The notes beneath the pieces are model-generated. The model ran no database searches. It had not been told where the DNA came from and was given only the letters and a program-made list of their open reading frames with translations. A stretch of DNA of 64,000 bases from Nitrospirota bacterium (GTDB lineage Bacteria; Nitrospirota; JACRHL01), in contig JACRHL010000014.1 in assembly GCA_016212085.1 (NCBI GenBank), positions 1 through 64,000 of the forward strand, read 5' to 3'. Of the stretch, positions 26,522 to 35,908 are shown one piece after another (position 1 is the first letter of the stretch; every line of letters starts with the position of its first letter). The position numbers were made by a program, and so were the translations under genes.

Positions 26522-27904
26522 CTAGGGCTCTCCCGGCTCCGCCTGGCGCGCGGACAGGACCCGGCAGTGCAGCACGCCGGCGTGCAGCCGCACGCCGATC
26601 TCCGTGCCCGGCGGCGCCTCGGCGGCGTGGCGCAGGATGGCGTCGCCCCGGCGGGCGATGGCGTAGCCCCGTCCCAGCACCCCCAGGGGTGACAGTTCCG
26701 ACAGCTTGCCCGCATCCTCCGCCAGGCGCGCGGCCGCGTGCCGCAGTTGCAGGCGCATGGCCTGGCGCAGCCGCCGCCGCAGGCCCTGGGCGCGCTCCGT
26801 CAGGCGCGGGATTTGCCCGCCCGGCGCCGCCGCTCCAAGGCGGATGGCGGCCGCCTGCCGGCGGTGGGCGGCGTGGGCGAGGGCGGCGCGCATCAGCCGC
26901 ATGAGCTGTCCGTGCAGGTCGTCCATCCGCTGCGCCGCGTGGCGCAGCCGTTCGCGCGGGTCGATCAGCCCCGCGCGGGCCGCGCGCACCTGCAAGCGGT
27001 GGCCCGTCAGCCGCCGCCCCATGGCCTGACCCAGGCGCCCGGAGCATTCGCGCGTGCGGCGCAGCAGGTCGCCCCAGGCGGCGCTGACCAGCTCCGCCGC
27101 CGCGCTGGGCGTGGGGGCGCGCAGGTCGGCGGCCAGGTCGGCGATGGTGGTGTCGGTCTCGTGGCCGACGCCGGCCACCACCGGCACCGGGCAGGCGGCG
27201 ATGGCGCGCGCCACCGCCTCGTCGTTGAAGGCCATCAGGTCTTCCAGCGAGCCGCCGCCGCGGGCCAGGATGACGGCGTCGATGTCCGGCACCGCCGCCA
27301 CCGCCCCCAGCGCCCGCACCAGCTCGCGCGGGGCCGCGTCGCCCTGCACCGGGGTGGGCACCACCAGCACCGACAGGCCCGGGGCGCGCCGTTCCAGCAC
27401 GTTGAGGATGTCGCGCAGGGCGGCGCCGCTGGGCGAGGTGACCACCGCCACCCGGCGCGGCAGCAGCGGCAGCGGACGCTTGCGCCCCTGGTCCAGCAGC
27501 CCCTCGGCGAGCAGCCGCTGGCGGGTGGCCTCGATGCGCCGGTACAGGGCGCCCACGCCCGCCGCCTCCAGGTAGTCGATCACCACCTGGTACTCGCCGC
27601 GCGGCTCGTACACGGTCAGCCGGCAACGGCACAGGATCTGATCGCCGTCACGGGGGCGCTCCCCCAGGTAACGGGCGGTGGAGGCCCAGACCACGGCGCG
27701 CACTTGGGCCTCGTTGTCCTTCAGTGTCAAATAGATGTGGCCGGAGCCGGGGGCGCGCAGGTTGCTCACCTCGCCCATCAGCCAGATGGCGCCGAACGTC
27801 CCCTCCAGGGTGCCGCGGATGCGCCGCGTCAGCTCGCCGATGCTGAGGATCTCGCGGGCCTTGACCAGGCCGCCGGGTGGGCCGCCCGGCCCCGCCTCAC
27901 TCAT
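26522..27904 (-). CDS. xseA: Exodeoxyribonuclease VII large subunit
   Basis: A 460-residue XseA. The N-terminal OB fold (about 18-115) includes WLMGEVSNLRAPGSGHIYLTLKD; the catalytic domain has VAVVTSPSGAALRDI, ILARGGGSLEDLMAFNDE and PVVAGVGHETDTTIADLAADLRAPTPS; a coiled-coil arm follows, ending in GRGYAI. With XseB it degrades single-stranded DNA into oligonucleotides. No xseB lies next to it. It overlaps ymdB by 8 bp, so it belongs to the rarA-rny-ymdB-xseA run. Confidence 0.96.
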   Translation of the reverse strand: MSEAGPGGPPGGLVKAREILSIGELTRRIRGTLEGTFGAIWLMGEVSNLRAPGSGHIYLTLKDNEAQVRAVVWASTARYLGERPRDGDQILCRCRLTVYEPRGEYQVVIDYLEAAGVGALYRRIEATRQRLLAEGLLDQGRKRPLPLLPRRVAVVTSPSGAALRDILNVLERRAPGLSVLVVPTPVQGDAAPRELVRALGAVAAVPDIDAVILARGGGSLEDLMAFNDEAVARAIAACPVPVVAGVGHETDTTIADLAADLRAPTPSAAAELVSAAWGDLLRRTRECSGRLGQAMGRRLTGHRLQVRAARAGLIDPRERLRHAAQRMDDLHGQLMRLMRAALAHAAHRRQAAAIRLGAAAPGGQIPRLTERAQGLRRRLRQAMRLQLRHAAARLAEDAGKLSELSPLGVLGRGYAIARRGDAILRHAAEAPPGTEIGVRLHAGVLHCRVLSARQAEPGEP

Positions 27905-28679
27905 CGCGGAGCTGGATCCGTTGGATGGACCGGCAGCGCCCGCTGTCCGCGTCCACGTCGGCGATGGCGCCGCTGAACACGGCGGGGCCGGAGGCCACCA
28001 CGAAGCGCTTGGGCAGGGCGGTCAGAAAGCGCGCCAGCACCAGCTCCTTTTTCATGCCGATCACCCCGTCCATGGGGCCGGTCATGCCCAGGTCGGTCAG
28101 GTAGCCGGTGCCGCCGGGCAGTACCCGCTCGTCGGCGGTCTGCACGTGGGTGTGGGTGCCCACCACGGCGGAGGCCGCGCCGTCCAGGTGCCAGCCCATG
28201 GCCATCTTCTCGCTGGTGGCCTCGGCGTGCACGTCGACGATCACCACCGGGGTCTCGCGCTTGAGGCGCGCCACCTCGCGGCTGGCGGCGCGGAACGGGC
28301 AGTCGATGGCGTGCATGAACACCCGGCCCATCACCTGCACCACGCCCACCCGCTCCCCGGAGCGGGTGGTGAACACGCCGCTGCCCACGCCGGGGGCGCC
28401 ATCCGGATAGTTGGCCGGGCGCAGGACGCGCTTGTCGGAGCGGATCAGGTCGATCCCTTCCGGCTTGTCCCAGGCGTGGTTGCCGGTGGTGAGCACGTCG
28501 ATGCCGTTGGCGAACAGGTCCTTGACGACGCTGTGGGTGAGGCCGAAGCCGCCGGCGGCGTTCTCGCCGTTGCCGATCACCAGGTCCAGGCCGTGCTCGT
28601 CGCGCAGCCGGTCCACGTGCCGGAACACGGCCTTGCGGCCCGGCTCGCCCACGATGTCGCCGATCAACAGGATGCGCAT
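27897..28679 (-). CDS. ymdB: YmdB-type metallophosphoesterase
   Basis: A 260-residue metallophosphoesterase of the TIGR00282/YmdB family, starting MRILLIGDIVGEPGRKAV with the first metal-binding Asp at residue 8. GNGENAAGG, TGNHAWD, DVHAEATSEK and GTHTHVQTADE supply the remaining metal ligands. In Bacillus the homologue is a 2',3'-cyclic nucleotide phosphodiesterase that works with RNase Y, and the two genes are adjacent there as here. The start at 28679 shares a base with the rny stop (TGATG). Confidence 0.93.
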   Translation of the reverse strand: MRILLIGDIVGEPGRKAVFRHVDRLRDEHGLDLVIGNGENAAGGFGLTHSVVKDLFANGIDVLTTGNHAWDKPEGIDLIRSDKRVLRPANYPDGAPGVGSGVFTTRSGERVGVVQVMGRVFMHAIDCPFRAASREVARLKRETPVVIVDVHAEATSEKMAMGWHLDGAASAVVGTHTHVQTADERVLPGGTGYLTDLGMTGPMDGVIGMKKELVLARFLTALPKRFVVASGPAVFSGAIADVDADSGRCRSIQRIQLRDE

Positions 28680-30223
28680 CAGCGGGCGTATTCGATGAAG
28701 CGCGACTCGCGCACCAGGCACACCTTCACCTGGCCCGGGTAGGTCACTTCCTGTTCGATGCGCTTGGCGATGTCACGCGAGATGACCGCGCACTCCTCGT
28801 CGCTCAGGGTGTCGGCATCCACCAGCACGCGCACCTCGCGGCCCGCCTGCATGGCGTACACGCGGTCCACCCCCGGGAACGCGCTGGCCACCCCCTCCAG
28901 GTCGGCCAGGCGCTTCACGTACAGCTCCATGCTCTCGCGCCGGGCGCCGGGGCGGCCGGCGGACAGGGCGTCGCCCGCCGCCACCAGGTAGGCCTCCTTG
29001 GTGAGCGGCGCCACGTCGCCGTGGTGGGCGGCGATGGCGTTCACCACGTGCGGATGCTCGCCGCAGCGCTCGGCGAATTCGGCGCCGATGAGGGCGTGGC
29101 CGCCCTGCACCTCGTGGGTGAGGCTCTTGCCGATGTCGTGCAGCAGGCCGCTGCGGGTGGCGAGCTTGCGGTTGAGGCCCAGCTCGCCCGCCATCATGCC
29201 GCAGATGAGCGCCACCTCGCGGGCGTGGGACAGGTTGTTCTGGCCGTAGCTGAGGCGGTACTTGAGGCGCCCGAGCAGGCCGATGATGTCCGGGTGCAGG
29301 TCGTGGATGTCGAGCTCGTAGACCACCTTGTTGGCGTCGTCGCGCATCTCCTTGTCGAGCCGCGCCTCGACCTTGGCGACGGTTTCCTCGATGCGGGTGG
29401 GGTGGAAGCGGCCGTCGGCCATGAGCCTTTCCAGGGTTTCGTGGGCCACCTTGCGGCGCAGCGGGTCGAAACTGGAGAGCAGGATCGTCTCCGGCGTGTC
29501 GTCGACGATCAGGTTGACGCCGGTGGCCGCCTCCAGGGCGCGGATGTTGCGCCCCTCGCGGCCGATGATGCGGCCCTTCATGTCGTCGGAGGGCAGGTTC
29601 ACGGCGCTGATGGTGGATTCCATCACGTAGTCGCCGGCGATGCGCTGGATGGCGCTGCTGATGACGTGGCGGGCGTGGTCCTCGGCGGTCGCCTCCGCCT
29701 CCTCGCGCACCCGCTGCAACATCCTGCCGGCCTCGAAGCGCGCATCCCGCTCCAGGCGTTCCATCAGTTCCTGCTTGGCGGCATCGGTGGACAGGCCGGC
29801 CACCCGCTCCAGCTCGCGGGTGAGGCGCCGCACCTCCGTCTCCACCTGGGATGCACGGGTGCCCAGCTCCACCTGCTGGGCGGTCAGGGTGGCGGTTTGC
29901 TGGGCGGCCTGCTCCCGGTCCCGCGCCAGCTGGCGCTCCTGGTCGCGCAGCTCCCGCTCGCGGGTTTCGGTGGTGTCGCGGCGTTCCCGCGCCTCGGCGT
30001 CGATGGCCGCCTTGGCCTCCAGGCGCTGGTCCTTGACCTCCAGTTCCACGGCGCGGCGCAGTACGTCGGCCTCGCGCTCCGCGTTGGCGATGATCTTGTC
30101 GGCCAGGGTGCGTGCCTCGGCGCCGGCCAACTGGGCGTTGCCGCCACGGCGGACCATCAGGACGGCGACCGCCGCGATGGTGCCCGCCAGGGCGACCGCC
30201 AATACGATATCGGTGATGTCCAT
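28679..30223 (-). CDS. rny: Ribonuclease Y
   Basis: A 514-residue RNase Y. One N-terminal membrane helix (about 5-25) is followed by a long charged coiled coil (about 35-190), a KH domain with GRIIGREGRNIRALE (217-231) and an HD domain with the catalytic pair H362/D363 in LLHDIGKSLTHE. It is a membrane-anchored endonuclease that starts mRNA decay. The start is ATG 30223 after GGAG; the open frame above it overlaps rarA. Having RNase Y and RNase G in the same genome is unusual for classical proteobacterial models. Confidence 0.96.
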   Translation of the reverse strand: MDITDIVLAVALAGTIAAVAVLMVRRGGNAQLAGAEARTLADKIIANAEREADVLRRAVELEVKDQRLEAKAAIDAEARERRDTTETRERELRDQERQLARDREQAAQQTATLTAQQVELGTRASQVETEVRRLTRELERVAGLSTDAAKQELMERLERDARFEAGRMLQRVREEAEATAEDHARHVISSAIQRIAGDYVMESTISAVNLPSDDMKGRIIGREGRNIRALEAATGVNLIVDDTPETILLSSFDPLRRKVAHETLERLMADGRFHPTRIEETVAKVEARLDKEMRDDANKVVYELDIHDLHPDIIGLLGRLKYRLSYGQNNLSHAREVALICGMMAGELGLNRKLATRSGLLHDIGKSLTHEVQGGHALIGAEFAERCGEHPHVVNAIAAHHGDVAPLTKEAYLVAAGDALSAGRPGARRESMELYVKRLADLEGVASAFPGVDRVYAMQAGREVRVLVDADTLSDEECAVISRDIAKRIEQEVTYPGQVKVCLVRESRFIEYAR

Positions 30224-30236
30224 GGTGTCTCCGGTC

Positions 30237-31574
30237 TTATGTGGCGGGGGGGGAGGCCCCCCGGTTTTGGGCCTTGATGGCGTTGAAGTGCGCCAGCCGC
30301 TCCGCCAGGCGGGCCTCGAAGCCCTGCCGGGTGGGGTGGTAGTAGCTGCGCGCGGCCCCCAGGTAGTCCTGAGCCACGTAGTGGTCGGGAAAGTCGTGGG
30401 GGTATTGATATCCCTTGCCGTGGCCAAGCTTTTTGGCGCCCGCGTAGCTGCTGTCGCGCAGGTGCGCGGGAACCGCCAGCACGGTGCCCGAGCGGATGTC
30501 CGCCAGGGCCGCGTCCACCGCCTTGTAGGCGGCGTTGCTCTTGGGGGCAAGGGCCAGGTAGGTGGTGGCCTGGGCGAGGGGGATGCGCCCCTCGGGCATG
30601 CCTATGGCGCTCACCGCGCCATAGGCCGACATGGCCAGGTCGAGGGCGCGCGGGTCGGCGTTGCCCACGTCCTCGCTGGCGGAGATGACCAGGCGGCGGG
30701 CGATGAACAGGGGGTCCTCGCCCCCCTCGATCATCTTGGCCAGCCAATACAGCGCCGCGTCCGGGTCGCTGCCGCGGATGCTCTTGATGAAGGCGGAGAT
30801 GGTGTCGTAGTGGGCATCGCCGTCCTCGTACACCACGGGCTTCCTGCCTAGCGACTCGGCCATGGCCGCGAGGCCCACGCGGATGGTGCCGTCCGGCTCC
30901 GGCCGGGTGGTGGTGACGGCCATGTCGAGGGTGTTCAGGGTGCGCCGGGCGTCGCCCTCGGTGCGGGTGACGAGGAAATCCATGGCCTCCGGCGCCACCT
31001 GGACGGTGAGCGCCCCCAGGCCCCGCTCCCGGTCGGCCAGGGCGCGCTCGACGATCAAGCGGATCTCCTCCGGCGCGTGCGGCTCCAGCGGCACGATGTG
31101 GGAGCGCGAGGCCAGCGGCGGTATGATGGCGAAGAACGGGTTCTGGGTGCTGGCGCCGATAAGGGTGATGAGGCCCTGCTCCACGTGCGGCAGCAGGGCG
31201 CTTTGCTGGGGCTTGTTGAAGCGGTGAATCTCGTCGATGAACAGCAGGGTGCCGGCGCCGGTGGCGGCGCGCCGGACCGTGGCGCGCTCCACGATCGCGC
31301 GGATGTCGGGGATGCCGGCGGTGACCGCGTTCAGCTCCTCGAAGGGCAGCCCAAGCTCGGCGGCGATCAGGTGCGCCATGGCGGTCTTGCCGCAGCCGGG
31401 CGGGCCGAACAGGATCAGGGAGCCGATGCGGCCCGCGGCCAGTTGGCGGTGGATCAGCTTGCCCGGCCCCAGCAGGTGGCCCTGGCCGACATATTCCGCC
31501 AGGGTGCGCGGCCGCATGCGCCAGGCCAGGGGGGTGGCGGCGGTGTCGCTTGTCGTCCGCGAAAACAGGTCCAT
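30237..31574 (-). CDS. rarA: Replication-associated recombination protein A
   Basis: A 445-residue AAA+ ATPase. Walker A is GPPGCGKT (57-64), Walker B is LLFIDEIHRFN (D114/E115), and GASTQNPFF is the sensor region. The C-terminal half has the MgsA/RarA tetramerisation block (YDTISAFIKSIRGSDPDAALYWLA). It acts at stalled replication forks. ATG 31574 was chosen because the protein then begins at the family N-terminus; 91 codons of open frame precede it. It is first in the rarA-rny-ymdB-xseA run. Confidence 0.95.
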   Translation of the reverse strand: MDLFSRTTSDTAATPLAWRMRPRTLAEYVGQGHLLGPGKLIHRQLAAGRIGSLILFGPPGCGKTAMAHLIAAELGLPFEELNAVTAGIPDIRAIVERATVRRAATGAGTLLFIDEIHRFNKPQQSALLPHVEQGLITLIGASTQNPFFAIIPPLASRSHIVPLEPHAPEEIRLIVERALADRERGLGALTVQVAPEAMDFLVTRTEGDARRTLNTLDMAVTTTRPEPDGTIRVGLAAMAESLGRKPVVYEDGDAHYDTISAFIKSIRGSDPDAALYWLAKMIEGGEDPLFIARRLVISASEDVGNADPRALDLAMSAYGAVSAIGMPEGRIPLAQATTYLALAPKSNAAYKAVDAALADIRSGTVLAVPAHLRDSSYAGAKKLGHGKGYQYPHDFPDHYVAQDYLGAARSYYHPTRQGFEARLAERLAHFNAIKAQNRGASPPAT

Positions 31575-31681
31575 CACGCCCCTATTGAAGACAGCCCGGC
31601 GGGCCGCGTGACGGAGCGCTGGGGCGACGACGGCCCCGGCCCAGGGCGGGGGGATGGGCGGGCCGGCCCACGCCGCCCCGC

Positions 31682-31711
31682 TTGCGTCCACCCGCGCGAA
31701 GGCGGTATTAC
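31682..31711 (+). promoter_or_regulatory. Predicted promoter of the 6S-like RNA
   Basis: TTGCGT (31682-31687) is followed after 18 bp by TATTAC (31706-31711). The predicted start, near 31718-31720, coincides with the first base of the closing stem of the structured RNA. Confidence 0.5.
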
Positions 31712-31717
31712 TGATCC

Positions 31718-31893
31718 CCGCCTTGCCGTGACGTGCGGCGCCTCTGGAACTCTTGGTAAACCAAGTGGGCGCCCTAGCCAAGGCTTCAGGATGCCCCGCC
31801 GGCATACGCCGTGGGGCATGCACACCGCCGTGGATTCGGGCTCCCATTGCAGAAGCATTGAGCCCCGAAATTTGCGCACGCCACGTGCAAGGC
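31718..31893 (+). ncRNA. ssrS: 6S-like structured RNA candidate
   Basis: The 378-bp gap between rarA and the M23 gene contains about 176 nt that fold as a long rod. GCCTTGC (31720-31726) pairs with GCAAGGC (31887-31893). ACGTGCGGCGC (31731-31741) pairs with 31874-31886, with two single-base bulges. ATGCCCC (31791-31797) pairs with GGGGCAT (31813-31819) as the apical stem. A side hairpin (TTCGGGCTC/GAGCCCCGAA, 31835-31869) sits on the 3' strand of a large central bubble. Length, closing stem, bubble and apical stem match the 6S RNA plan. B. subtilis 6S-1 RNA also lies near rarA. I could not match the conserved gammaproteobacterial 6S sequence, so the family call is tentative. Confidence 0.55.
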
Positions 31894-31952
31894 AGGGAAG
31901 GTCACAGCCTTTGAACCCGTCACGTCGAAAAAAACAACAGGTCCACTCCATC

Positions 31953-32978
31953 TTGTACCAGAAATACCCCCGAATCGGCAAGGAAATCCGGCCCGGAAGG
32001 CCCCGTATTCCGCGGCGTTGCGGCGCGCTTGCCGGCGTGCTGGCGGTGCTGCTTGGCGTGGCGCCCGCGTCGTGGGCGGAGGCGCTCACCATCCGCCAGG
32101 GCGCCGTGGGCCGCGTCGAGGTGACCATCCACCCCGGCGATTCGGCGCCGTGGGGCAGCTTCGTCGGCGAGCGGGTGGTGTTCCGGCGCGTGGGGCCCGA
32201 GCGTTTCGCGGCATTGCTGGGGGTGGACATGGAAACCGCCGTCGGCGACCACCCCCTGGAGGTCCGCGTGCTGCGCGGCGGGGTGTCCACCGTGGTGACG
32301 CGGCCGACGGTGACCGTGAGCGACGGCGGCTTTGGCGTGCAGCGCCTCACCCTGCCCGACAAGATGGTGGACCTGGACGACGCGGCCCTGGAGCGCGTCG
32401 CCCGCGAAAAGGTCGAGGTGGGCGAGCTGTGGGAGCAGGGGGCCCGGAGCACCCCCGTCTGGTCCGACGAATGGCGCCAGCCGGTGGCGGGCGAGGCCGC
32501 CGGAAGCTTCGGGAAACGCCGCATTATCAACGGCAACCCGCGCAACCCCCACAACGGCGAGGACATCGCCGCGCCGGAGGGGACGCCGGTGCTGGCTCCC
32601 AACGCCGGCACCGTGCGGCTGGCCGGGGAGCGCTTCTTTGGCGGCCAGACCGTGTTCCTGGAGCACGGCGGCGGGTTGTTCACGTTCTACATGCACCTGT
32701 CCGCCATCGACGTGGCGGACGGCCAGCGGGTGCGGGCGGGCGAGCGGATCGGCCGGGTGGGGGCGAGCGGCCGCGCCACCGGGCCGCACCTGCACTGGGG
32801 CGGGCGCCTCAACAATGCCCGTATCAATCCGTTCACGCTGCTCCAGCCGCCGGCGGTGCTCACGGTGGCCGCCGCGCCCGCGGCGGACGGGCCTGGAACG
32901 CCCGCAGCGGATCAGCTAGCAACGCCCCCGGCGGATCAGGCCGGCACGCCCCCGGCGGATCAGGCCGGCACGCCGTAA
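31953..32978 (+). CDS. M23 (LytM-type) murein peptidase
   Basis: A 341-residue exported peptidase if TTG 31953 is the start. No ATG fits, and GTG 32037 inside the signal peptide is too late. The signal sequence runs to APASWA. The C-terminal M23 domain has the zinc ligands H and D in NPHNGEDIAAPEG and the HLHW motif, with no missing ligand, so it should cleave peptidoglycan cross-bridges or activate other hydrolases. The tail carries three 8-residue repeats (TPxADQxx). The last 19 bp overlap trmL on the other strand. It may be transcribed by readthrough from the 6S-like RNA promoter. Confidence 0.85.
   Translation: MYQKYPRIGKEIRPGRPRIPRRCGALAGVLAVLLGVAPASWAEALTIRQGAVGRVEVTIHPGDSAPWGSFVGERVVFRRVGPERFAALLGVDMETAVGDHPLEVRVLRGGVSTVVTRPTVTVSDGGFGVQRLTLPDKMVDLDDAALERVAREKVEVGELWEQGARSTPVWSDEWRQPVAGEAAGSFGKRRIINGNPRNPHNGEDIAAPEGTPVLAPNAGTVRLAGERFFGGQTVFLEHGGGLFTFYMHLSAIDVADGQRVRAGERIGRVGASGRATGPHLHWGGRLNNARINPFTLLQPPAVLTVAAAPAADGPGTPAADQLATPPADQAGTPPADQAGTP

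Positions 32979-34768: not shown

Positions 34769-35908
<1,140 letters not shown>

Follow-up and report, generated by a model that had tools for sequence, protein, structure and literature searches.

A single-copy 6S RNA gene that precedes rarA on the same strand in a Nitrospirota genome

6S RNA mimics an open promoter and occupies the housekeeping RNA polymerase, which is freed upon the copying of a pRNA from the central bubble. Members of the Rfam 6S/SsrS family have a closing stem, a central bubble, and an apical arm, with a length of about 190 nt. The neighborhood of the gene has been described in several bacteria. For example, the 6S gene of E. coli, ssrS, adjoins the gene for 5-formyl-THF cyclo-ligase (ygfA). 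In lactic acid bacteria, rarA is found upstream of the 6S gene, and in B. subtilis the two genes are adjacent and oppositely directed (PMC8414754). Finally, the 6S gene of Oleidesulfovibrio alaskensis G20 is a single-copy gene predicted with Rfam in a non-gammaproteobacterial Gram-negative genome (PMC11124144), as is the one described here.

The window (the whole 64,000-nt stretch of Nitrospirota DNA that was analyzed) almost certainly carries a 6S (SsrS) gene of ~190 nt on its minus strand, just before rarA and codirectional with it; the action of a 6S RNA is assumed for its product by membership in the family (Table 1). An earlier note on this DNA, made from the sequence, had recognized a 6S-like RNA and proposed a search with the Rfam 6S model, RF00013. 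When the whole window was searched with cmscan, RF00013 was matched at 78.6 bits against a gathering threshold of 46.4 (E 8.1e-14), although the match is to the complement of the strand that had been read. The minus-strand alignment covers model positions 1–187 of 187, demonstrating that the 6S is not truncated, and its span of 191 nt (the ends being predicted) falls within the range of about 180–200 nt for 6S RNAs and replaces the 176 nt first estimated. On both strands of the window, Rfam yielded two matches, a tRNA at 323–396 and the 6S RNA. The plus strand at the locus was without an Rfam match, and nothing besides 6S appeared at E values up to 10 in a 1.2-kb search with permissive filters.

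In its features, the RNA is an ordinary member of a known family. The conserved blocks CACGGCAA and GUGUGCAUGCC/GCCU/GGCGCCCACCUGG are present, together with the closing stem, central bubble, and apical arm, and nothing was seen that lies beyond the family's range. As a 6S gene, the locus is of minor weight, since any Rfam-based annotation would detect it. One 6S match was found in this genome when 2.70 Mb in 23 contigs were searched with the Rfam 6S model, with no second copy. Matches were also found in all four of the genomes compared from the same class and in 256 of the 296 sampled across the phylum. Many genomes of the phylum have two or three 6S matches (e.g., G169, G208, G216, and G253).

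Table 1. Features at the 6S locus, in window coordinates.
Feature	Position	Strand	Basis or remark
rarA/mgsA	30240..31574	-	Pfam MgsA_C 234 bits; phmmer to 3pvs RarA E 3e-110; synteny
Antisense promoter-like element TTGCGT-N18-TATTAC	31682..31711	+	All four family genera, 0/300 shuffles; AATACCG block shared
6S RNA (ssrS) gene	31711..31901	-	cmscan 78.6 bits; covariation over 29 relatives
Predicted pRNA initiation template U45, 5' side of central bubble	31857	-	Rfam alignment to E. coli U44
Weak candidate 6S promoter TTGCCG-N18-TACAAG	31952..31981	-	Starts 80 nt upstream of model 5' end
MepM-like M23 peptidase gene (divergent relative to 6S)	31953..32978, start codon uncertain	+	Pfam Peptidase_M23 106 bits

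The architecture reported in the earlier note, a long closing stem followed by a central bubble and an apical hairpin, is real: a strongly structured rod with a long, interrupted closing stem, a central bubble, and an apical stem-loop occurs at about 31711–31901. Both strands of it fold well. The minus strand has a minimum free energy of -108 kcal/mol (z -6.7) and the plus strand one of -99.4 kcal/mol (z -5.8), neither of which was matched in 200 shuffles. The plus-strand reading arose because the complement of a long rod or hairpin folds as well, and reading the reverse complement likewise produced the mismatch with the gammaproteobacterial consensus that had suggested a divergent member or a new RNA. 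More generally, this serves as a warning that raw sequence can mislead on the strand of hairpin-rich RNAs.

The direction of the RNA could be settled because a G-U pair becomes an A-C opposition on the complement, making the comparison asymmetric between strands. In the alignment of 29 relatives, the rarA-strand consensus fold contained 116 G-U cells against 37 A-C cells, while the fold on the other strand contained 38 against 60. Moreover, the rarA-strand fold was the better one in 29/29 relatives, by a mean of 10.3 kcal/mol. The idea that the plus strand encodes a novel or divergent 6S-like RNA, transcribed away from rarA, could draw on the good plus-strand fold and on a promoter-like element, kept in four genera, that stands before that RNA. 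This reading was nevertheless rejected, given the lack of an Rfam match on that strand, the weaker fold in all relatives, and the excess of A-C oppositions over G-U pairs; in addition, its fold is the mirror of 6S, and 6S, unlike the promoter-like element, also occurs outside the family. It is regarded as extremely improbable.

Conservation of the minus-strand 6S structure was demonstrated by covariation, on which the earlier note had made its proposal depend. The alignment of 29 relatives gave a consensus of 45 pairs, 29 of which showed two-sided changes, and covariation was present in both arms of the consensus fold. The covariation score was 0.429, compared with 0.183±0.010 in shuffled alignments and at most 0.159 in slid ones, and 87.4% of cells were paired, compared with 73.5% after shuffling and 47–51% after sliding by one column. 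None of 500 shuffles reached any of these measures. Kinship alone may exceed shuffles without any structure being present, yet the slid controls, which retain relatedness, drop to 0.16 or less. A separate RNAalifold run on the same alignment found compensatory changes in 22 of 31 pairs. A leader-trailer stem beyond the 6S ends, traced by eye in the flanks, was dropped because it is absent in L003 and L004.

By virtue of its family membership, the RNA would be expected to act as 6S RNAs do. Its rod, with a central bubble resembling an open promoter, would bind and sequester the housekeeping RNA polymerase holoenzyme, and an abundant 6S RNA would then lower transcription from many promoters, presumably with regulation by growth phase. 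Release would occur when the polymerase copies a short pRNA from the 6S template. The pRNA is predicted to be 5'-AUUGAGCCCCGAAAUUUGCG, starting at U45, which the Rfam alignment places opposite U44 of the E. coli RNA.

With both genes on the minus strand, 6S and rarA are codirectional and not divergent, contrary to what had first been supposed; 6S is upstream, with a gap of 136 nt between the two. The nearest solved structure to the rarA product is 3pvs, itself a RarA. The downstream neighbor here is rarA, unlike in E. coli, where ygfA adjoins ssrS. Across the phylum, rarA was found within the flanking DNA available around 6S in 34 of 72 distinct loci, representing 15 families, with the loci lacking it partly explained by short flanks. 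In 34/34 loci having rarA, it is on the same strand as 6S and downstream of it, at 89–632 nt. The 6S gene adjoins rarA in this phylum as it does in lactic acid bacteria and Bacillus (PMC8414754), although the order differs, with 6S upstream of rarA on one strand here. The arrangement in 15 families of the phylum extends the 6S-rarA neighborhood reported for lactic acid bacteria (PMC8414754). Also in the neighborhood are a TIGR00282 metallophosphoesterase gene at 27897–28721 (minus strand) and, at 34850–35908 (plus strand), an MreB gene that starts a probable mre gene cluster.

The promoter of the 6S gene is less clear in the window than in some of its relatives. When both strands of 31550–32100 were scanned with a strict consensus, a sigma-70 site of 9/12 was not found. 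Related loci were compared with a weighted promoter scan that used approximate E. coli weights. Clear sense promoters were found upstream of 6S in several other families (0/300 shuffles in each of f3, f4, f5, f8, and f25), an example being TTGAAT-N17-TATTAT at -32 before 6S in f8. In the window, a weak candidate, TTGCCG-N18-TACAAG, has analogues in two of three sister genera (three of four family genera in all), with a weak signal that was reached by 1/200 shuffles on three sequences and by 16/300 on four. Transcription from this candidate at -80 would imply that some 45 nt of leader are removed by processing. The lack of a strong sigma-70 promoter directly upstream in the window's family counts against the 6S explanation.

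A second promoter-like element is located at the other end of the gene, on the plus strand, and consists of TTGCGT (31682–31687), an 18-nt spacer, and TATTAC (31706–31711). This is evidently the promoter that the earlier note had firing at the 5' base of the closing stem. Its position did prove to be conserved: TTGC-N18-TATTA occurs in 4/4 genera of the family, 28–30 nt from the 6S 3' end and with the same 18-nt spacer (0/300 shuffles). The element itself, however, scores only about 7/12 against the sigma-70 consensus and is antisense to 6S. None of the other families tested had it at this place, with f8 and f4 giving antisense signals at other positions (4/300 and 10/300 shuffles, respectively) and the remaining families giving less or nothing. 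Because it recurs in four genera at the same position, the element is probably not noise, and if it is a promoter, transcripts from it would run antisense to 6S, toward the M23 gene. As a conserved antisense element, it is a modest, testable lead.

Two explanations of this element, both compatible with the minus-strand 6S gene and covering the promoter-like element only, were weighed. The one preferred, with modest confidence and short of probable, is that a plus-strand promoter serves the divergent M23 gene, giving rise to an mRNA leader of at least about 200 nt that complements 6S, with 6S remaining the locus's functional RNA. Such a promoter would account for the conservation of the two blocks in the family and their absence at this site elsewhere, and it would fit the observation that, among the loci compared, an M23 homologue adjoins 6S only in the window's own family; furthermore, a plus-strand terminator-like site was not found in the interval. 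Against it, the comparison involves four sequences from one family, to which residual homology may contribute, the match in the window itself is imperfect, and the -35 block overlaps sequence able to form sense-strand hairpins in some members. A fuller version, in which a family-conserved promoter at the 6S 3' end drives antisense transcription through the whole of 6S into an M23 mRNA leader that couples 6S with cell-wall remodelling, is judged unlikely. If true, either transcription interference or pairing of the 6S-complementary leader would tie a global polymerase regulator to the remodelling of the cell wall.

Alternatively, the conserved AATACCG block that follows the 3' end of 6S could be a maturation or termination signal for 6S on the minus strand, with no promoter involved, a reading that is somewhat doubtful. 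The block abuts the 6S 3' end in 4/4 genera, and in L130 a hairpin stands just past it. However, a promoter accounts better for the second block, whose distance is fixed and whose spacer varies, and no shared fold holds both blocks. The hairpin of L130 (family f1), immediately downstream of 6S, is a perfect, GC-rich one of 12 bp, CCCGCGGCGGGT...ACCCGCCGCGGG; it is a possible terminator, and the sister genera are without that form.
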